Origin: Nitrososphaerota archaeon
GTDB lineage: Archaea; Thermoproteota; Nitrososphaeria; Nitrososphaerales; Gagatemarchaeaceae
Direction of reading: 5' to 3'
Length of the DNA stretch: 64,000 bases
NCBI GenBank assembly: GCA_027887005.1
Contig: JAPCJI010000001.1
Coordinates: 248,001 to 312,000, forward strand
Shown here: piece after piece, positions 15,626 to 56,302 of the stretch
Position numbering within the stretch: the first letter of the stretch is position 1
Layout: every line of letters starts with the position of its first letter
Translations under genes and position numbers: made by a program
Notes under the pieces: model-generated
The model's database searches: none
Told to the model about the DNA's origin: nothing
Seen by the model: the letters and a program-made list of their open reading frames with translations, nothing else

Positions 15626-15704
15626 GGCGCCCGACTTGCAAGAATCTCCCTTGCGACCGTAAATGGCTTTATCCTCCAGTTTTCGCCCCGATTCAAGACC
15701 AACC

Positions 15705-17630
15705 TTGTCCCAGGGAGAACGCAGACTTGCAGCGATAATGTTCACTGACCTAGTCGGATACACCGCTCTTGCTCAGAGCGACGAATCCCTCGCCCTGAAA
15801 CTCCTCGACGGCCACAGGGACTTGATCCGCCCTCTCTTCCCAAAGCACTCGGGGCGCGAGGTGAAGACAGTTGGCGATGCATTCCTTGTCGAGTTCGACA
15901 GTGCCCTGGATGCCACCGAATGCGCAGTGGAGATTCAAAAGCGTCTTTACGAATACAACCAGAGCGCCAAGGACAGAGTTCTGGTCAGAATCGGGATCCA
16001 TCTTGGCGACGTGATTCACAGGGAGGGGGACGTCTACGGCGACGCAGTGAACATCGCCTCTAGGATCGAGCCTTTGGCTTCTGGTGGAGGCATATGCATC
16101 TCCGAACAGGTCTACTATCAAGTGAGGAATAAGGTTCCATACAAGCTGGTCAAGCTAGAGCTCAGAGAGTTGAAGAACGTGGCGTTTCCGATCGAAACTT
16201 TCAAGGTGGAGCTGCCGTGGGACGAGGAGAAACCCGCTCAAGCCATGCAACTCGACAGCAATCGCATAGCCGTCCTCCCCTTCGTCAACATGAGCCCCGA
16301 CCCCAATGACGAGTACTTCGCCGACGGGCTCACTGAGGAGCTCATCACCCGTCTCTACGACGTGAAAGGTTTGGAAGTCATAGCAAGAACCTCCGTGATG
16401 AACTACAAGAAGAAGGAGAAGAACATCACGCAGATAGGGAAGGAGCTGAACGTCGGTTCCATCATAGAAGGGAGCGTCCGCAAGGCGGGAAACAACATCC
16501 GGGTCACAACCCAGCTGATCAACACCACTACGGAGGGCCACATATGGGCATCCACCTACGACAGGAGCTTGGACGACGTCTTCGCAGTCCAGAGCGAGAT
16601 CGCTTCCAAGGTCGCCGAGTCGCTTTCAGTCGCCCTGACGAAAGGAAGCTCAGCAGTCCCCCTGGAGAAGGACACGGAGAACGTCTCGGCGTACACGGAT
16701 TTCCTTCAGGGGAGGGAGCTCGTCCACGAGACGAAGGAGGAGCCGCTCCGACAGTCCCTCCGCTTCTTCGAGCAGGCAGTGCGCAAGGACCCGCGCTTCG
16801 CCAGGGGATATGTGGGAATGGCTCAGGCGTACGTCTCGCTTGGAGGGCATGGTTTCATCTCTTTCCGCGAATCGATAGACACCGCCAGATCTTTCCTTCT
16901 CAGGGCCATGGCGTTGAACGACAGGCTGGCCGAGATTCATGCCCTGCTGGCCGAGCTGGCTTTCATGAACGACGATCCTTTCGAGATTACGGAAGCGGAG
17001 GCCCGCAAGGCAGTCGAGCTGAACCCCAACCAGGCGGACGCCTACATGGAGCTCTCCAGCGTGATGGCCGTCACGAGGAGAATGGAAGAATCGGTGCGTC
17101 TACTTGAGACAGCCTACCATCTAGACCCTCTTTCAACCGCCATCATTTCCGACCTTGGGCGGGCCTACTACTACTCGGGAAGGGAAGCCGAAGCCCTCAA
17201 TCACTGGGACAGGACCCTCCATCTCGAACCGCTTAACGCCCACCGATGGCTGTGCGAATATCATCTAGCCAAGGGGAGTCTCGACGAAGCAAAGAGTGAG
17301 GTCGCCAAACTTGAACTGCTTGACTCAGCCTGGGAGTTCACGATGTACTACAAGGGGTACGTTGCCGCGCTCGCCGGGGACAGACAGACTGCGTTGGGCA
17401 TGATTGCGGCTCTCGGAGAGGCCCACAAGGAGGGATGGGCGAGGTCGTGTTTGGCTGGAATGATCCAGAACGCCTTGGGAGACACTGATGCTTTCTTCCA
17501 GGCAATGCGCGTCGCTGCTCAAGACCACACGCTGCGTGCCATCGACCTGATCTACTCACCTCTTTTCGTGAACGCCCGGACCGACCCTCGAATGAAGGAA
17601 GTCCTGGCGATCATTGGAATGATGCTCTAG
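15705..17630 (+). CDS. class III nucleotide cyclase fused to TolB-like domain and TPR repeats (paralogue 1)
   Basis: I prefer the TTG at 15705 because it aligns exactly with the TTG start of the paralogue at 26906 and sits about 34 nt after a GCTTTATC box. An ATG at 15663 adds 14 unmatched residues. The cyclase domain (about 5-180) has both metal aspartates (D15 in FTDLVGY, D58 in VGDAF), the base-selecting Lys54 and Asp109 of adenylate cyclases, and N116/R120 of VNIASR. A FlgO/TolB-N-like domain (about 190-315; [21 protein letters not shown]) and TPR-like helices (about 330-640) follow. No TM segment is seen. Predicted role: cytosolic cAMP synthesis with a protein-binding tail. This architecture is common in bacteria. 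Confidence 0.85.
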
Positions 17631-26905: not shown

Positions 26906-28855
26906 TTGTCACATGGGGAGCGAAGACTCGCGGCCATAATGTTCGCCGATGTCTCTGGCTACACTGCCCTCACCCAGCAGAACGAACCATTCGCCCTTCA
27001 GGTTCTTTCGAAGATCAAGCATTTGATAACGCCAGTTCTTGAGAAGCATGGCGGAAGACTGGTCAAGACGATGGGGGACGGGTTATTGGTGGAGTTCTCC
27101 AGCGCGATGGACGCTGTCCTCTGCGGAATCGAGCTTCAGAATGCGATGCGGGAGCGGAGACGAGACTCGGACATGGAACCCGTCCAGTTGAAGGTGGGGA
27201 TTCACGTTGGCGACGTCATCCACGAGAACGGGGATGTGTTCGGTGACGCTGTTAACATCGCATCGAGGATTGAGCCACTGGCAGGGCCGGGCGGAATCTG
27301 CATCTCGGGTGATGTGATGAATCAGGTGAAGACCAGGCTAAGCTACGCAACCACTTCAATGGGGCCACAGAAGCTCAAGAATGTCGCAAGCCCAATGGAG
27401 ACGTACCGCGTGCTCCTCCCTTGGGACCGCGAGTCGCCAGTCGGCTCTCAAGAAGCTGGTCGAGACAAGCACCGGCTAGCGGTCCTCCCGCTGAGCAGCT
27501 TCAGCCCTGACCCCAACGATGAGTACTTCGCGGACGGAATGATGGAGGAGATAATCACCAAACTTTCGGGTGTCAACGGACTCAAGGTCATCGCCAGGAC
27601 ATCGGCGATGAAATACAAGGGAGTCCGGAAGTCTGTCCAAGAGATAGGCACAGAGCTGGGAGTAGGCTCCGTCTTGGAGGGGAGTGTTCGGAAATCAGGT
27701 CAAAGGGTTAGGATAACTCTCCAGTTGATTGACGCGTCGACCGAGGAACACCTATGGGCGAACAGCTACGATCGAGACCTTACCGACATATTCGCGGTCC
27801 AGACAGACATCGCTCAGAGCGTCGCCGGTTCGCTCGAAGTGAAGCTTTTGGCGAAGGACCTAGAGGCCATAGGCCGTCCTGAAACGCAGAAGCTCGGGGC
27901 GTACAGCCATTATCTGAAAGGGCGCAGAGCGATGCCAAGCAGGACTGACGAGGGATTGAAGGAAGCAAGAGCCGAATTCGAGGCTGCCATCGCAGAGGAC
28001 CCCTCCTATGCACGGGCATACTCAGGGTTGGCCGACTGCATGATGGTGATGGCGAGCTATCAGATCATTTCACAAGAGGAAGGGGGGAAGAAAGCGAGAC
28101 CACTCGTCATCAAGGCCCTAGAGATTGACGACGGGCTGGCTGAAGCGCACGCTTCTCTCGCGCTTCTGCTCAGCACGTATGACCTTGATTGGGCAGGGGC
28201 GGAGCGCGAATTCAAGCGAGCTCTGGAGATCAACCCAAGCTATGTCCCTGCCCATCATTGGTACGCAAACCATCTTTCAGATCTAGGAAGGACGGATGAG
28301 ATGCTCGCGGAGGCGCAGAGCGCACTTGAGCTCGACCCGCTCTCGGCTGGTGTTACTGTGTCAGCGGCGATTGCGTCTTACTACACACGGCACTATTCCC
28401 AGGCCCTGTCTCTGGCAAGGCGGGTCCTTGAACTCTCCCCGCAGAACAGAGGAGCGAAGTTCATGGTCCCCCTGATACTGTCCGAGATGGGGAGACGGGA
28501 CGAGGCGATCGCTGAGGGATTGAAGTTCGCAGAAGAAACGGCGCGCCGTGCCGATTCGTTGGGGGCCCTAGGATGGGCCCTTGGAAGGGCTGGGAAGGTG
28601 GAGGAGGCTAGGGGAATCGTAGAGGAGATGGAGGAGCTGAAGCTCCAAGGCAAAGCTCTTGCAGGGGACATCTGGTTCGTGTATGTCCCCCTCGGAGACC
28701 TGGACAGGGCCTTCGAGTACCACGACCAGGCGATCGACGCGCGCGACCAAGACGTCGCCGTGATTCGGCTCGCGCCGGGCCTGGAAGCGATGCGGGCCGA
28801 CCCCAGGTACGAAGCCCTGTTGAAGAGATTGCGCCTGGCCGGTTCGAGCGGCTAG
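26906..28855 (+). CDS. class III nucleotide cyclase fused to TolB-like domain and TPR repeats (paralogue 2)
   Basis: The 649-residue protein starts at a TTG about 36 nt after a CTTTATG box. The cyclase domain (about 5-180) keeps D15 (FADVSGY), K54, D58 (MGDG), D110 and the VNIASR N117/R121, so metal binding, adenine selection and transition-state residues are all present. A TolB-N/FlgO-like domain follows (about 190-315; [21 protein letters not shown]), then about seven TPR-like repeats (325-640). It is colinear with the 15705 gene throughout. Two such cyclases in one archaeal window suggest duplication after acquisition of a bacterial-type gene. That origin is inference. Confidence 0.85.
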   Translation: MSHGERRLAAIMFADVSGYTALTQQNEPFALQVLSKIKHLITPVLEKHGGRLVKTMGDGLLVEFSSAMDAVLCGIELQNAMRERRRDSDMEPVQLKVGIHVGDVIHENGDVFGDAVNIASRIEPLAGPGGICISGDVMNQVKTRLSYATTSMGPQKLKNVASPMETYRVLLPWDRESPVGSQEAGRDKHRLAVLPLSSFSPDPNDEYFADGMMEEIITKLSGVNGLKVIARTSAMKYKGVRKSVQEIGTELGVGSVLEGSVRKSGQRVRITLQLIDASTEEHLWANSYDRDLTDIFAVQTDIAQSVAGSLEVKLLAKDLEAIGRPETQKLGAYSHYLKGRRAMPSRTDEGLKEARAEFEAAIAEDPSYARAYSGLADCMMVMASYQIISQEEGGKKARPLVIKALEIDDGLAEAHASLALLLSTYDLDWAGAEREFKRALEINPSYVPAHHWYANHLSDLGRTDEMLAEAQSALELDPLSAGVTVSAAIASYYTRHYSQALSLARRVLELSPQNRGAKFMVPLILSEMGRRDEAIAEGLKFAEETARRADSLGALGWALGRAGKVEEARGIVEEMEELKLQGKALAGDIWFVYVPLGDLDRAFEYHDQAIDARDQDVAVIRLAPGLEAMRADPRYEALLKRLRLAGSSG

Positions 28856-40406: not shown

Positions 40407-40758
40407 GGTTGGTCAGGTGGAAAAGGCCAGAGGTCCGAAACCTCGGACAACCTTGACTTCAAGTGCCTTCCAATAAGGTAGGAACCTCCACTCATTGCAA
40501 GATTGAGGGGCAGCGGAGCTGGGGTTCACCCAGCCCCTGATTACATGGACCCTAGACGTTCCTCAGTGCGAAGAACTTCTGCCCCGAAATCCAGTTCAGC
40601 GCCTTCTCTAGTTAGGGCTTCTTGCCGTTTCCAATGTGAGAATGGGGAATCCGGTCCCAAAAAGGCAGCCCTCCTCCCCACTTGCCCCTCTGAGAGATGG
40701 TGCTCCCGCGGAGAAGGAATAAAATGACTTGTCTGAACCTGGCGGCGGGGCGGAGAGT
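40407..40758. other. about 350-bp intergenic region
   Basis: Contains a GC-rich hairpin around 40508-40541 (GGGGC...CTGGG-GTTCA-CCCAG...CCCC) that could end the nucleotidyltransferase transcript. GAATAAAATG at 40717-40726 is a TATA-like element before the next gene. Frames across it on both strands lack structure. Confidence 0.4.
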
Positions 40759-41244
40759 TTGACGATAGTACCTTTGGCGAAGTTCGGGGGGATGCCGGGA
40801 ATCGGGACGATAATGCTGAACTCTGCTGGCGAATTTCGTGACAAGGAAGGCTTGGGAGTTCCCGGCTACATAGCAGAAGAAGCAGGTAATTTGTTGAGCA
40901 AGCTCGCATCTCCTGGCCCTCTGTCACGTCCACTCGTAGTAACTGGCAAGTCAGGGATAGTGCACACATTTGCCTTCGGCTTTGGCGACCTAGGAAAGCC
41001 AACAGTAGCATGTGATATCGTCGTCGGCTCCAATCCCGTCGATGAGACGAAAGTTCTCTCCCTCTTCATCAAGGTGTACGACGTTGGGGCCAAGAACGCC
41101 ATCCTCTGTGTGATTCCGAGCCTCATGCCTCAGGCCAAGAAGCTGGCAGGTCTTTACAAGATAATAGTGGTCGAAGCGCTTGACAAGAACCAGGCCGCCT
41201 CTAGACTGGCCGAAGTCCTCGAGAAAATCTCCACGCCCAGGTAG
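40759..41244 (+). CDS. unknown protein, paralogue of 42216-42623 (restriction-endonuclease-like fold suspected)
   Basis: Started at the TTG at 40759 (a TTG at 40729 is too close to the TATA-like GAATAAAA), the protein has 161 residues. Its C-terminal 105 residues match the protein at 42216 closely. Shared blocks are G-K/R-S-G-I/V-x-H-x-F-x-F-G, P-V/I-D-E-T-K/R-x-L-S-L, IKVYDVGAK-x-AILC, P-S-x-x-P-x-A-x-KL and LY-x-I-x-VVE. The G-x-SG-x-x-H-x-F start, beta strand with IKV and the later ILC...VVE strands recall Mrr/RecB-like nuclease folds, but the usual catalytic D...E-x-K is not intact. It is followed by an ACT-V4R sensor gene. Confidence 0.6.
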   Translation: MTIVPLAKFGGMPGIGTIMLNSAGEFRDKEGLGVPGYIAEEAGNLLSKLASPGPLSRPLVVTGKSGIVHTFAFGFGDLGKPTVACDIVVGSNPVDETKVLSLFIKVYDVGAKNAILCVIPSLMPQAKKLAGLYKIIVVEALDKNQAASRLAEVLEKISTPR

Positions 41245-41311
41245 ACTAACCGGTAAACCTATATGAATCGGAAGGTGAAAGAACGGGTAAGGCTGTCTTC
41301 TATTCTACCGA

Positions 41312-41319
41312 CTTAAATA
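41312..41319 (+). promoter_or_regulatory. TATA box for the ACT-V4R gene
   Basis: CTTAAATA is centred about 37 nt before the ATG at 41353. Confidence 0.55.
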
Positions 41320-41352
41320 ATCCGACGAAGTGGTGTATCGTACAACTAAGAC

Positions 41353-42135
41353 ATGAAACAAGCCAAGCGACGTATTTTCGCCTATCATTATGCTCCAGGT
41401 AAGAAGCTTTTCAACGTCGTCGTGACTCTAAAGGACGTTCCCGGCGCCCTGAGCAGTGTCTTGGAGCTCCTTAGCGACAGGGTGAATCTCATTGGAAGCG
41501 TGAGCTACGCGACTGGTGATGGCAGTGCGATCTGGAGTGGTTTTGCTCAATCTCTTTCTCAAAGAGAATCAACTGCCAATCTGAAACGTCTCCTAGGAAG
41601 GTCAAAGATGGTTAAGGAGTCATGGGTCGGACAAGGCCAACAAGGCTTCCTCGTCGACTCGTTTCACACTGGCATCGATATCGATAGCGAGTCCTTCATG
41701 CTATCACCAAGGAAGGGCACGTCGCAGATGTTCGAGATGCTGGTGAAGACATTCGGGACTGGAGGAGAAACAATACTCTTCAATGAAGGAGTGGAGATGG
41801 GTAGATTTACGGCGGAGTACTTCAGAAAGATCCTGGGTCCAGAGCTCGCCAAGAAGAACCCCTCGAAGTACGGTTCGGTATTCGGGGCTGAAGGGTGGGG
41901 TGCTGGTACTCTCTTAAAGAGTCGGACTGATGGGAAGGTCAGGATCAGAGTAGCAGAATGCTTCGAATGCTCAACCAAGAGCGATGTCAGGACGACCTGC
42001 ACCTTCAGGAGAGGTCACATCCAGGGCTTTACCTCGACGATCCTAGAACGCCCGATGACGAGCGTCGAGACTACCTGCCGGTTTAGGGGTGGGCCTTACT
42101 GTCAGTTCGAACTGAGCGACGCGAGGCCGAAATGA
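41353..42135 (+). CDS. ACT-like domain fused to a V4R ligand-binding domain
   Basis: The 260-residue protein has an N-terminal ACT-like fold (about 17-95: LFNVVVTLKDVPGALSSVLELL, quoted in part, then VNLIGSVSYATG). The C-terminal half (about 120-256) is a 4-vinyl-reductase/XylR-type V4R domain. It has the helix FNEGVEMGRFTAEYFRKI, the strand VRIRVAECFEC and the end motif CRFRGGPYCQFEL. V4R domains bind small hydrophobic or aromatic ligands and often hold cysteines, of which this one has four or more. There is no DNA-binding domain. It lies between two paralogous unknown genes, all on the same strand. Confidence 0.75.
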   Translation: MKQAKRRIFAYHYAPGKKLFNVVVTLKDVPGALSSVLELLSDRVNLIGSVSYATGDGSAIWSGFAQSLSQRESTANLKRLLGRSKMVKESWVGQGQQGFLVDSFHTGIDIDSESFMLSPRKGTSQMFEMLVKTFGTGGETILFNEGVEMGRFTAEYFRKILGPELAKKNPSKYGSVFGAEGWGAGTLLKSRTDGKVRIRVAECFECSTKSDVRTTCTFRRGHIQGFTSTILERPMTSVETTCRFRGGPYCQFELSDARPK

Positions 42136-42215
42136 GGCACTTCCTCACCGAGGGCGTTGAATTATCTCGTCGAACGAGATCTGATCGCCTGGAAGAAGAA
42201 TCAGGTGCCTATTAG

Positions 42216-42623
42216 ATGGTCTCAGCGATGGCTTCTGAGTCCGACCGTGTAGCCCGAGAAATCGTCCAATCACTGAATGAGCATGAGCCTGGCGCGCCAT
42301 TCGAAAGCCCCATCACTGTTGTGGGCAGGTCCGGGGTTCGCCATTCTTTCTCCTTTGGCTCCAAGACCAACGAAGGTGCGAACGTAGTCGGGGATATCAT
42401 CTTCTCATCGAGTCCAATTGACGAGACAAGGATCCTGTCTCTGTACATCAAGGTCTACGACGTGGGGGCGAAACGTGCCATTCTGTGTGCCCTGCCCTCC
42501 ATCACGCCAGAAGCAAGGAAACTCTCAGACCTCTACAGCATTGCCGTTGTCGAGAGCCCGGACGAGGGGGAACTCGCGGAAATGGTCTCAAAGACTGCCC
42601 AGAAGCACTTGAAATCGCATTAG
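42216..42623 (+). CDS. unknown protein, paralogue of 40759-41244
   Basis: A 135-residue protein matching the C-terminal two-thirds of the 40759 product block by block (VVGRSGVRHSFSFG, SSSPIDETRILSLYIKVYDV, AILCALPSITPEARKLSDLY). It differs in lacking that protein's N-terminal 40-odd residues (KFGGMPGIGTIML), having instead a short helix (ESDRVAREIVQSLNEHE). Together with the paralogue it flanks the ACT-V4R gene, suggesting a hetero-oligomer regulated by the sensor. The nuclease-like fold is a suspicion only. Confidence 0.65.
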   Translation: MVSAMASESDRVAREIVQSLNEHEPGAPFESPITVVGRSGVRHSFSFGSKTNEGANVVGDIIFSSSPIDETRILSLYIKVYDVGAKRAILCALPSITPEARKLSDLYSIAVVESPDEGELAEMVSKTAQKHLKSH

Positions 42624-42724: not shown

Positions 42725-43546
42725 TTGAACTGCGAATTCTGTGGGAAAGAGGAAGCCCTGCCGTTTGTTTGCAACTATTGCGGAAGCGCCATCTGTCCTG
42801 ACCACAGGCTACCTGAGGCGCACCAGTGCAAGGGAGACCTGTCTCAAAGGAGGACCATAGTCGCACCCCCGCAGACCACCTTCAGCTGGCAGGATTCAGC
42901 CACATCTCAGCCGCTTCCCCCGCCTCAGCGGACAGGGGTCTTCTCAGCGATAGAAGTCAGAGACATACTCATAGCTTGGCTCGCCCTCGGGGTCGCGTTC
43001 TCCCTCGCTCTTTCCGGAGTAGGACTCACATTCTTGTTCGGAGGCCAAGGTCTAGGACTTGGGGACATCATCGCCCTGTTCCCGATTGCCCTAGTCACCG
43101 TGGGGTCGGGTTTCGTACTCCACGAACTCAGCCACAAGTTCGTCGCCCAGAGGTACGGTTACTGGGCTGAATTCAGGATGTGGCTTCAGGGCCTCTACCT
43201 CGCGCTCATTACGTCCCTCTTCGGTGTTATCATCGCCGCGCCGGGCGCCACCTATATTTCTGGGATCAGTATCTCCCGCGTCCAAAACGGGTGGATCTCC
43301 CTGGCAGGGCCCCTGACCAACGTCGCCCTCGCCGCTGTTTTCCTTCCTGTCTTCTACTTTGGAGGGGGGACTTGGCAACTCCTCGGGTACCTCGGAGTGC
43401 GTATCAACATCCTCCTTGCAGCCTTCAATATGCTCCCCCTCGGCCCTCTGGACGGCGCTAAGGTCTTCAGGTGGAGTTTCGTGCTCTGGGTTCTAGTATT
43501 CGCCCCGCTTGCGGGCGCCTATGTCTACACCTCCTGGATTCTGTAA
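42725..43546 (+). CDS. AN1 zinc finger fused to an M50-type membrane metalloprotease
   Basis: A 273-residue protein. Residues 3-35 form an AN1 finger with all ligands in order (C3, C6, C16, C19, C24, H27, H33, C35). After a Pro-rich linker, five or six TM helices follow. One carries the zinc-protease motif H133-E-L-S-H137 (HExxH), and a later one N-M-L-P-L-G-P-L-D-G-A-K, supplying the third ligand Asp of site-2-protease relatives. It cleaves within or beside membranes. The TTG start places the finger at the exact N-terminus. AN1-M50 fusions occur in archaea, and the substrate is unknown. Confidence 0.88.
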   Translation: MNCEFCGKEEALPFVCNYCGSAICPDHRLPEAHQCKGDLSQRRTIVAPPQTTFSWQDSATSQPLPPPQRTGVFSAIEVRDILIAWLALGVAFSLALSGVGLTFLFGGQGLGLGDIIALFPIALVTVGSGFVLHELSHKFVAQRYGYWAEFRMWLQGLYLALITSLFGVIIAAPGATYISGISISRVQNGWISLAGPLTNVALAAVFLPVFYFGGGTWQLLGYLGVRINILLAAFNMLPLGPLDGAKVFRWSFVLWVLVFAPLAGAYVYTSWIL

Positions 43547-43561
43547 TATCGGTCCAGGAGA
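43547..43561 (+). repeat. left member of a short direct repeat flanking the transposase-like gene
   Basis: TATCGGTCCAGGAGA matches TATCGGTCCGGGCGA at 44207-44221 (13 of 15). The pair encloses the IS6-like gene, possibly a trace of insertion. Confidence 0.35.
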
Positions 43562-43649
43562 GAATTTGTCATATCAAACGACCCACTCTGTTAAGATAAT
43601 CCATCTCGGTCTGCTAAAGCATCGAGCGGGCCCTAACTTAACGGTCAAG

Positions 43650-44195
43650 ATGTCATCCCTCCAGCCGCTTGGACTTCTGATGGTACTCAAAGAGTGGGCT
43701 GTCTCCACCGGGGCCTTCCGCCGGAACCGCATGGACCCGGGGAAAAAGGTGCTCGCAGCGGCGCTGTGCAACGCAGGCTACTCCTACCGGGAGGTCGCGG
43801 GCATGGTCGGAGGGCTTTCATACATCGCCGCCAGGGACGCCTACTTGGCCTTGCTCACCAGTCTTCCCGAGGAGGCCAGGAAGTACCGCCGCGAAGTTGC
43901 GATCGACGGCGCGGACGTTACCGTAGGAGGGCGCGGATTCTATCTTTGGATTGCGAGGGACGTCGACAGCGGGGAGATAATGTCGTTCCACGGATCTTCG
44001 TCAGGCTCGGCGGAAGACTCCGCAAGATTCCTTGCGAGCGTCGGTGCTCAATGTGCCAACAGGCCCCTCGTCAGGCTCGGAGTGGGGCAGAACTTTCCTC
44101 GAGAACTTCTGAACTTGGATTTGTACTTCCAAATGGCACCCACTCAGTCTCTGATCGGAAGGCTGGGAAGGATATTCATGGGTTCAGGACAATAG
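43650..44195 (+). CDS. IS6-like DDE transposase homologue with lost catalytic residues
   Basis: The ATG at 43650 gives 181 residues. An N-terminal helical DNA-binding region (about 1-75; KKVLAAALCNAGYSYREVAGMVG) precedes an RNase-H-like core, EVAIDGADVTVGGRGFYLW, then ARDVDSGEIMSFHGSSSGSAEDSARFL. In IS6-type enzymes the first Asp lies in a D-E-T segment (here DGA) and the second in V-D-G-G (here R-L-G-V-G). The second Asp is absent and the third region is cut short (LIGRLGRIF). It is therefore inactive or domesticated, not a mobile transposase. A short direct repeat flanks the gene. Confidence 0.6.
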   Translation: MSSLQPLGLLMVLKEWAVSTGAFRRNRMDPGKKVLAAALCNAGYSYREVAGMVGGLSYIAARDAYLALLTSLPEEARKYRREVAIDGADVTVGGRGFYLWIARDVDSGEIMSFHGSSSGSAEDSARFLASVGAQCANRPLVRLGVGQNFPRELLNLDLYFQMAPTQSLIGRLGRIFMGSGQ

Positions 44196-45696: not shown

Positions 45697-46356
45697 TCAG
45701 GAGCCGGTCGCCTTAATCGTCGCCTTGATGCTAACCGGAGCGCTCTCGGGTCCCATCACGTCTCGACCAATCAGTTCTGAGATCGAATCCAGCACCCTGT
45801 TGAGCTCTTCTTTCTCGCGTGCATCTCTCGCGGTCATCGAGTTCGACATCTCCATCATGGCTTTGTACCCTGCTTCGTCGATCTCCCCCGAGCGTGAGTA
45901 GACTTTGATGTTGACAAGGAACTCCTCCAACACCTCTTCTTGCTGTTCGAGCTCCTTGACTCTCTGGGTGATCTTCTTGCCAAACTCACTGAAGGATATC
46001 TGAATCTTATCAAATTGTTCCTCGTACTGCTGGTACATCCTGTCATGCGTCACCTTACTTATTTCGCCCTCCTTCCTGAGATCAGTCAGTGCCTGCAGTC
46101 TTTTCTTGACCATCTCCTGCTCTCTTGAGAGCACCTCGCTTTCAATCTTCCAGGCCGGCACGACAACAAAACCATCTTTGTCAGTGAGCAGGCGAGAAGA
46201 GGGGTACTCCGCGAATTTACCCTTTCCCTCATCCACGCCTATGGATTTCACCTCACCCGAAGTGTCAATCGAGAAGCCGATCGCGAGTCCTGCATTTCTG
46301 CCGTACAGGTCCTTAACTGGCTTGCCCACCAAGGGTGTTATTGAGTCAGGTTTCAT
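45697..46356 (-). CDS. cdvA: CdvA-like cell-division protein (PRC barrel plus coiled coil)
   Basis: The 219-residue protein has an N-terminal PRC-type beta barrel (about 8-70: LVGKPVKDLYGRNAGLAIGF and FAEYPSSRLLTDKDGFVVVP). A continuous charged coiled coil follows (about 75-200: VLSREQEMVKKRLQALTDLRK, quoted in part, to NRVLDSISELIG), then a short tail (SAPVSIKATIKATG). This order and length match CdvA of Sulfolobales and Thaumarchaeota, which coats DNA and membrane at midcell and recruits the ESCRT-III protein CdvB through its C-terminal tail. CdvB and CdvC are not in the window, consistent with their being unlinked in some thaumarchaea. Confidence 0.75.
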   Translation of the reverse strand: MKPDSITPLVGKPVKDLYGRNAGLAIGFSIDTSGEVKSIGVDEGKGKFAEYPSSRLLTDKDGFVVVPAWKIESEVLSREQEMVKKRLQALTDLRKEGEISKVTHDRMYQQYEEQFDKIQISFSEFGKKITQRVKELEQQEEVLEEFLVNIKVYSRSGEIDEAGYKAMMEMSNSMTARDAREKEELNRVLDSISELIGRDVMGPESAPVSIKATIKATGS

Positions 46357-56041: not shown

Positions 56042-56302
56042 ATGGGGGTCAGCCTGAAGGGAAAGTCAGGGGTGTCGCTCATGTTCGGACAAGGAGATTT
56101 CAGTGTGCCAAACGGCCTTCAGGACCTGCCATTCACTGTCACGGATTTCTACACGCGCGAAGTGAACGACTTCGACGTGATCCGGTTCTACCTGATGTTG
56201 TCTGACACGGGGGTCCACCGGGGACGGATAATGGCGCCTTCGTTCAGTGCTGCGGCGAAACGGCTGGCAGAGGGCTACTCGCTGACGCTTGAGTTGGCCT
56301 AG
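56042..56302 (+). CDS. small hypothetical protein, 86 aa
   Basis: An 86-residue protein from an ATG. Strands near the start (VSLKGKSGVSLMFGQGDFSV) are followed by DFDVIRFYLMLSDTGVHRGR and a C-terminal helix (FSAAAKRLAEGYSLTLELA). No motif is recognised. It diverges from the FixCX gene, and its last 4 nt overlap the convergent mdh end (56299-56302). The balanced composition supports a real gene of unknown function. Confidence 0.5.
   Translation: MGVSLKGKSGVSLMFGQGDFSVPNGLQDLPFTVTDFYTREVNDFDVIRFYLMLSDTGVHRGRIMAPSFSAAAKRLAEGYSLTLELA

Follow-up and report, generated by a model that had tools for sequence, protein, structure and literature searches.

The window, a 64,000-nucleotide stretch spanning positions 248001–312000 of contig C1 in a 1.6-Mb archaeal genome (G000), contains three co-directional ORFs on the + strand at 40729–42623. 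Two of them encode the paralogous flanking proteins P1 and P2, and the one between them encodes V, an ACT-V4R protein; the nuclease-like domain of P1 and P2 is referred to as P. The features of the locus, with the evidence for each, are as follows.

40729–41244, + strand: P1, a free-standing degenerate Mrr-like domain protein of 171 aa (paralogy with P2, P-family profile match, motif residues).
41313–41321, + strand: TATA-like TTAAATAAT, ~36 nt 5' of the V start codon (read directly from the sequence).
41353–42135, + strand: V, a putative ACT-V4R sensor protein of 260 aa (Pfam V4R, model fold, homology to ACT-V4R proteins of relatives).
41383–41655, + strand: ACT domain region of V, about residues 11–101 (model secondary structure, Foldseek match to the Ser33 ACT domain).
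41710–42120, + strand: V4R domain region of V, about residues 120–256 (13-protein alignment, fold search).
42216–42623, + strand: P2, a free-standing degenerate Mrr-like domain protein of 135 aa (AlphaFold model, AF1548 fold match, lost catalytic residues).
42725–43546, + strand: gene for an AN1 zinc finger and M50 peptidase protein, outside the module, a syntenic marker common to congener G088 (Pfam; 61% identity to the G088 gene 3' of P–V).
56042–56299, + strand: a third short P-like ORF of about 85 aa, not adjoining the trio (P-profile match, 8e-16).

The start codon of P1, a TTG, is uncertain, and the initial annotation had taken an in-frame TTG at 40759; the P domain within P1 extends over roughly 40855–41241. 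Intergenic gaps are 108 bp between P1 and V and 80 bp between V and P2. The TATA-like element is a possible promoter of V–P2, so that V–P2 may be transcribed apart from P1, and the two gaps together with this element do not prove a single transcript.

P1 and P2 were 44% identical over 119 gap-free aa (BLASTP, E=3e-36), a likeness far beyond chance, indicating that they are true paralogues. All motifs of the block pattern originally ascribed to the two flanking proteins were found in both of them, with GKSGIVHTF, DETKVLSL and KLAGLY in P1 corresponding to GRSGVRHSF, DETRILSL and KLSDLY in P2, and with IKVYDVGAK, AILC and VVE common to both; their N-termini, which had been described as different, indeed differed. 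In the tree, P1, P2 and a protein from G154 formed one group (94/88) with no fixed inner order; P1 and P2 may be a lineage-specific tandem duplication. P1 and P2, for which the initial annotation proposed divided roles, differ in charge: the pI is 8.9 for the P1 domain and 5.5 for P2. V has a pI of 9.6, and this mixture of a basic P1 domain, an acidic P2 and a basic V would suit a heteromeric complex.

Direct scans of P1 and P2 against Pfam, NCBIfam and PADLOC matched no family, Pfam Mrr_cat included, and P1 matched the profile of the 73-member P family at 1.7e-34. An AlphaFold model of P2, built from an alignment of 69 P domains, had a mean pLDDT of 90.7 and a pTM of 0.84; in it, an initial helix and four strands were followed by a helix, a strand, a helix, a strand and a final helix. 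When the model was compared with the PDB by Foldseek, AF1548 (1y88) was the best match (E=4e-6), followed by MspJI and the CRISPR nucleases Cdn1 and Can2, with RPB5 lower. The 69-domain P profile also recovered 1y88 among PDB sequences (E=2.6e-5). A PDB search with the six-sequence alignment of the P1/P2-like clade alone found no chain, indicating that the AF1548 link needs the broad alignment or structure. The same six-member clade, built without L100, matched the intact Mrr domain of L100 with an hhalign probability of 93.9. L100, a member of the P family encoded by congener G088, is at the same time an ordinary member of Mrr_cat (Pfam E=2e-22, GRSGAEHQID...VIEAKS) and was matched by NA-iREase1 (PF22722). 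The predicted structure, the Foldseek and profile matches and the hhalign comparison together show P, at the level of models and alignments, to be a PD-(D/E)XK domain of the Mrr/AF1548 type. AF1548 is a predicted restriction endonuclease with the catalytic residues D38, E51 and K53 (PMC1821046). P has the fold, the G-x-SG-x-x-H/Q-x-h-D segment and the order of elements in common with AF1548 and Mrr_cat (PF04471), whereas the catalytic D and E-x-K are gone in P1 and P2.

The triad, present as D, E and K in L100, was replaced by A and D-x-V in P1 and by S and D-x-I in P2, where D, E and K correspond to S46, D60 and I62, so that P1 and P2 do not carry the catalytic D and (D/E)-x-K of active Mrr-type nucleases. 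All members of the P1/P2-like clade (P1, P2 and the proteins of G154, G010, G072 and G088) were without D and K, and a complete D, D/E-x-K was found in 2 of the 69 aligned P domains. Conserved instead, in P2 numbering, were G37, S39-G40, H43, K79, D82 and Y107, with K79 kept in 56 of the 69 domains and D82 in 66. Judged by the aligned residues, P is shown to be a CATALYTICALLY degenerate nuclease domain. The initial annotation, which had taken the two proteins for a degenerate Mrr-type nuclease, was therefore right on both counts, the AF1548-type fold with its profile match and the loss of the catalytic residues; the opposite outcome that it had considered, a fold unrelated to nucleases, does not apply. 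The N-terminal domain of RPB5 and NA-iREase1 are likewise nuclease folds without an active site that serve as structural or recognition modules, but P1 and P2 had no direct family match to them. A literature search for inactive restriction endonucleases in archaea, or for an archaeal combination of ACT and V4R, found none.

V matched Pfam V4R (PF02830) with E=1.6e-10 and 41.4 bits against a cut-off of 31. The match to Pfam ACT was below threshold (E=0.028); the assignment is by fold, as the ACT region aligned in 74 columns with the ACT domain of Ser33, a phosphoglycerate dehydrogenase (Foldseek, rmsd 1.8 A), with weak profile matches to 2f06 and 1vr9. An ACT domain fused to V4R between the two paralogues, as first read, is thus backed by profile for V4R and by fold for ACT. 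In the model of V (pLDDT 79, pTM 0.56), the V4R half matched PoxR, MopR, DmpR, MJ1460 and eukaryotic Bet3/TRAPP by Foldseek, and V4R is homologous to Bet3 (PMC2253512). C206, E239, C242 and C250 were invariant in 13 aligned ACT-V4R proteins. The zinc ligands of DmpR are Cys151, Glu172, Cys177 and Cys185 (PMC7264223), and the three Cys and one Glu that characterize PoxR, MopR and DmpR were assigned in V from their positions and from how far apart the last two Cys lie, a correspondence drawn without residue-level superposition. V resembles PoxR/MopR/DmpR, MJ1460, MsvR and Bet3 in V4R fold and metal-ligand residues; it differs from PoxR/MopR/DmpR, MJ1460 and MsvR in having an N-terminal ACT instead of an HTH and in lacking both an AAA+ and a DNA-binding domain. 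Since the V4R fold, the metal-ligand residues and the ACT domain occur together, V looks like a metal-stabilised small-molecule sensor, and its modelled V4R domain with a predicted zinc-ligand site plus the ACT domain make this role plausible. The small-molecule responsiveness suggested by the initial annotation is plausible on the same grounds, a phenol-sensor V4R fold among them; the ligand is something that we infer. An ACT-V4R paralogue in the same genome (L052:7693–8942; G000:C1 about 68.7–69.9 kb) lies directly 3' of a winged-helix gene resembling the HTH_45 genes of the pilus loci.

P relatives were present in 78 of 300 genomes of the order. Among 71 full-length P proteins, 29 matched TackOD1 (PF18551), five HTH_45, four to five TrmB models and three PadR. 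Of the 250 genomes sampled across the phylum, 165 had TackOD1 and 153 had P. P was encoded in the same ORF as TackOD1, as its C-terminal half, at all 30 TackOD1 loci examined (L129–L158), which were the best-scoring TackOD1 matches, so that weaker ones may differ. In the 2018 census, TackOD1 is a cysteine-rich stretch of about 200 residues with a function termed obscure (PMC5847659). A description of the C-terminal domain was not found in the openly available TackOD1 literature or in the census passages on the family. TackOD1 (arCOG06883), which sits in thaumarchaeal pilus loci (PMC4858521, PMC5847659), has the same P domain as its C-terminal half, whereas P1 and P2 are free-standing, lack the cysteine-rich domain of about 190 aa with CxxC motifs by which TackOD1 is defined, and flank an ACT-V4R gene. 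No TackOD1 match was found in the window's genome, which contains four free P domains: P1, P2, one at G000:C1:84636–84938 and one in the short window ORF at 56042. A scan of genome contigs with the single P2 sequence gave no match, and a scan with the six-sequence P alignment recovered three MAGs; MAGs of the Nitrososphaerales/Thaumarchaeota make up the named close relatives. No P relative was found among viral contigs, and hence no virus link. The folds and families were already known, and the combination, together with P as the constant half of TackOD1, appears to be new. At a further locus (L085:369–2389), a V4R-only gene is followed by an HTH_45-P-DUF835 fusion, placing P between a DNA-binding and another signalling domain.

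The three-gene order, whose conservation elsewhere had been proposed as a check, was not conserved: within the sample, P1–V–P2 occurred solely in the window's genome. The P–V pair alone recurred in 3 of the 30 other genomes of the genus (G010, G072 and G088), with P directly upstream of ACT-V4R. A close V homologue was detected in 13 of the 31 genus genomes and a close free P in four, always beside V. Within the genus, a free P of the P1/P2-like clade has V next door. A second ACT-V4R copy was located downstream in G010 and G072, where the window has P2, and the order in G017 was V4R–P. V without a nearby P was found at at least ten further loci, and the G154 protein, which comes from outside the genus, had no V beside it but followed nucleotide-sugar dehydrogenase-like genes near a contig end. 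The scattering of the flanking genes without V4R neighbours, which the initial annotation had named as a sign against its reading, was therefore seen in part, yet P–V proximity was above chance: outside the window's genome, 8 of 80 P matches lay <=1.5 kb from a V match compared with 0.59 expected from random placement, a count that is only indicative because related genomes are not independent. The P proteins of G010, G072 and G088 carried a strongly hydrophobic N-terminal stretch, suggesting that they are probably membrane-bound, with a membrane hairpin likely by prediction.

In G088, genes for a T2SSE ATPase, T2SSF and Pilin_N and a V4R-only gene were located within about 8 kb of P–V, and the pairs in G010 and G072 had the same small neighbour genes as that of G088. 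P lies beside secretion ATPase/pilin genes in all three. TackOD1-P is similarly placed in G044, G142 and G052, where its neighbours are pilin and T2SSF-type genes and an ACT-V4R gene lies about 4–6 kb off. These arrangements stand alongside the tie between arCOG06883 and thaumarchaeal pilus loci made by Makarova et al. (PMC4858521). The window locus was syntenic with the P–V side of the G088 pilus region: both have the AN1-M50 gene downstream, at 61% identity, and a transposase-like gene, at 69%. The genes on the pilus side (one V4R-only, one winged-helix, one coiled-coil and two membrane-protein genes) have their homologues in a separate type IV pilus-like locus of the window's genome (L054, G000:C1 about 110–128 kb), and secretion ATPase/pilin genes were not found beside the trio in the window. 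Since the genome's own pilus locus lies elsewhere, the pilus link rests on relatives, not on local neighbours. L054 (G000:C1:110000–128000) contains TadA/TadC-like genes, a V4R-only gene and several winged-helix genes, and its sugar nucleotidyltransferase is 32% related to one at window 39636. TackOD1-P was preceded by a small-GTPase gene in both G012, where it is of the Ras family, and G026, and ACT-V4R followed about 1.5 kb on. Ras/Rab-like small GTPase genes directly adjoin TackOD1-P at L106:110–643, L072:2–367 and L044:9239–9892; at L106 and L072, ACT-V4R, with its Bet3 fold, lies about 1.5 kb beyond, a possible archaeal partnership of GTPase and V4R.

With a confidence a little short of even, we propose that the trio is a split signalling module of the non-catalytic nuclease-fold proteins P1 and P2 and the ligand-responsive V, tied to the regulation of the cell surface or type IV pili. 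Because P is the other half of the pilus-linked TackOD1 family, the trio is probably a signalling module and not a weapon, and the fusion of P elsewhere to winged-helix regulators and to TackOD1 argues for a regulatory role. P1 and P2 would be pseudo-nucleases that have lost D and K and act as non-catalytic binding modules. V would bind a hydrophobic, aromatic or amino-acid-like ligand and, once bound, would change its oligomeric state or its contacts; P1 and P2, probably as homo- or heteromers, would pass the state of V on, and cell-surface functions, type IV pili being the likeliest, would in turn be regulated differently. P and the TackOD1 zinc-ribbon domain belong to a single chain in most relatives; the window's genome uses free P domains. 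The proposal builds on the gene set, the paralogy, the folds obtained by prediction and comparison, the lost motif, the occurrence of P with TackOD1 and DNA-binding regulators, the P–V proximity and the pilus neighbourhood of relatives; physical interaction, ligand, direction of signalling and pilus output are what we infer. Against it stand the restriction of the trio to the window's genome, the small number of other genus genomes with P–V (three) and the frequency of V without P.

P1 and P2 could instead be non-cutting DNA-binding proteins that serve as transcription (co-)regulators under V, the trio being a one-component regulator split over several chains. The fusions of P to PadR, TrmB and HTH_45 DNA-binding domains and the position of the ACT-V4R paralogue in the same genome directly 3' of a winged-helix gene are consistent with this. 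The V4R domain of MsvR reportedly regulates transcription. V4R also regulates transcription in DmpR (PMC7264223). However, P2 is acidic, P need not be a DNA binder given its probable membrane anchoring in three relatives, and it need not bind DNA itself in the fusions, where it adjoins an existing DNA-binding domain; we therefore regard this explanation as unlikely. That P and V, both multi-copy signalling domains, became neighbours by accident and without function would agree with the mostly unlinked occurrence of the two families, many V loci having no P and many P loci no V, but it is improbable in view of the excess of proximity across different contexts (P–V, V4R–P and TackOD1-P with ACT-V4R) and the V adjoining the close free P in three of three congeners. 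V, through its Bet3 fold, might also form with P a TRAPP-like platform for recruiting or controlling either a Rab-like small GTPase or some membrane process, with P as the tether. The Ras-family-type GTPase, TackOD1-P and ACT-V4R genes within about 4 kb of one another in G012 and G026, the homology of V4R to Bet3 (PMC2253512) together with the Foldseek matches to Bet3/TRAPP, and the hydrophobic N-terminus of P in three relatives point this way; yet no GTPase gene lies beside the window trio, the GTPase link is confined to one other family and V4R also suits a plain ligand sensor, making such a platform very unlikely. It would be still more surprising if P1 and P2 were active nucleases, for instance a regulated toxin or defence enzyme, with a lysine relocated to K79, which lies in the helix that follows the core sheet. 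Lysine relocation is known among PD-(D/E)XK enzymes, and the conservation of K79 and D82 and the retention of D60 would be expected of such an enzyme, but the D of motif II is also gone in P1 and P2, and no PADLOC model of a known anti-phage defence system matched P1, V or P2. In addition, AF1548, whose own E-C-K is intact, carries R and D at the positions aligned with K79 and D82, indicating that K79 need not be a replacement lysine; as a catalytic residue it is possible, not favoured.

The split signalling module may be one instance of a wider scheme, which as a whole we consider somewhat unlikely, in which P is an undescribed pseudo-nuclease signalling domain across TACK archaea that, as the constant half of TackOD1 or as a free subunit, couples V4R/ACT sensing, in some lineages together with a Rab-like GTPase, to pilus or surface control. 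If true, P-based coupling would be a type of signal transduction independent of kinases. In TACK archaea, signalling proteins of the TackOD1 family are common and unexplained; their ending with a degenerate Mrr fold provides a testable handle, and P also stands alone beside a V4R sensor, giving two small proteins and one candidate sensor to work with. The locus may be a further example of a nuclease fold recruited for signalling, here beside a protein homologous to Bet3, a subunit of eukaryotic TRAPP.

Other genes of the window were also recorded. The P-like ORF at 56042–56299 (+) lies between FAD-dependent reductase-like and malate-dehydrogenase-like genes and has kept the SG motif, with a truncated N-terminus. 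The transposase-like gene at 43509–44195 (+), like a gene at L039:12791–13255, is weakly similar to IS6-family transposases (NCBIfam E=6e-5); with 69% identity and the same position in the congener, it is perhaps domesticated. A CdvA-like gene is present at 45697–46356, in keeping with a TACK archaeon. Two large similar proteins, encoded at 15663–17627 and 26906–28852 (+), have an adenylate/guanylate-cyclase-like N-terminal segment, which is unusual for an archaeon.
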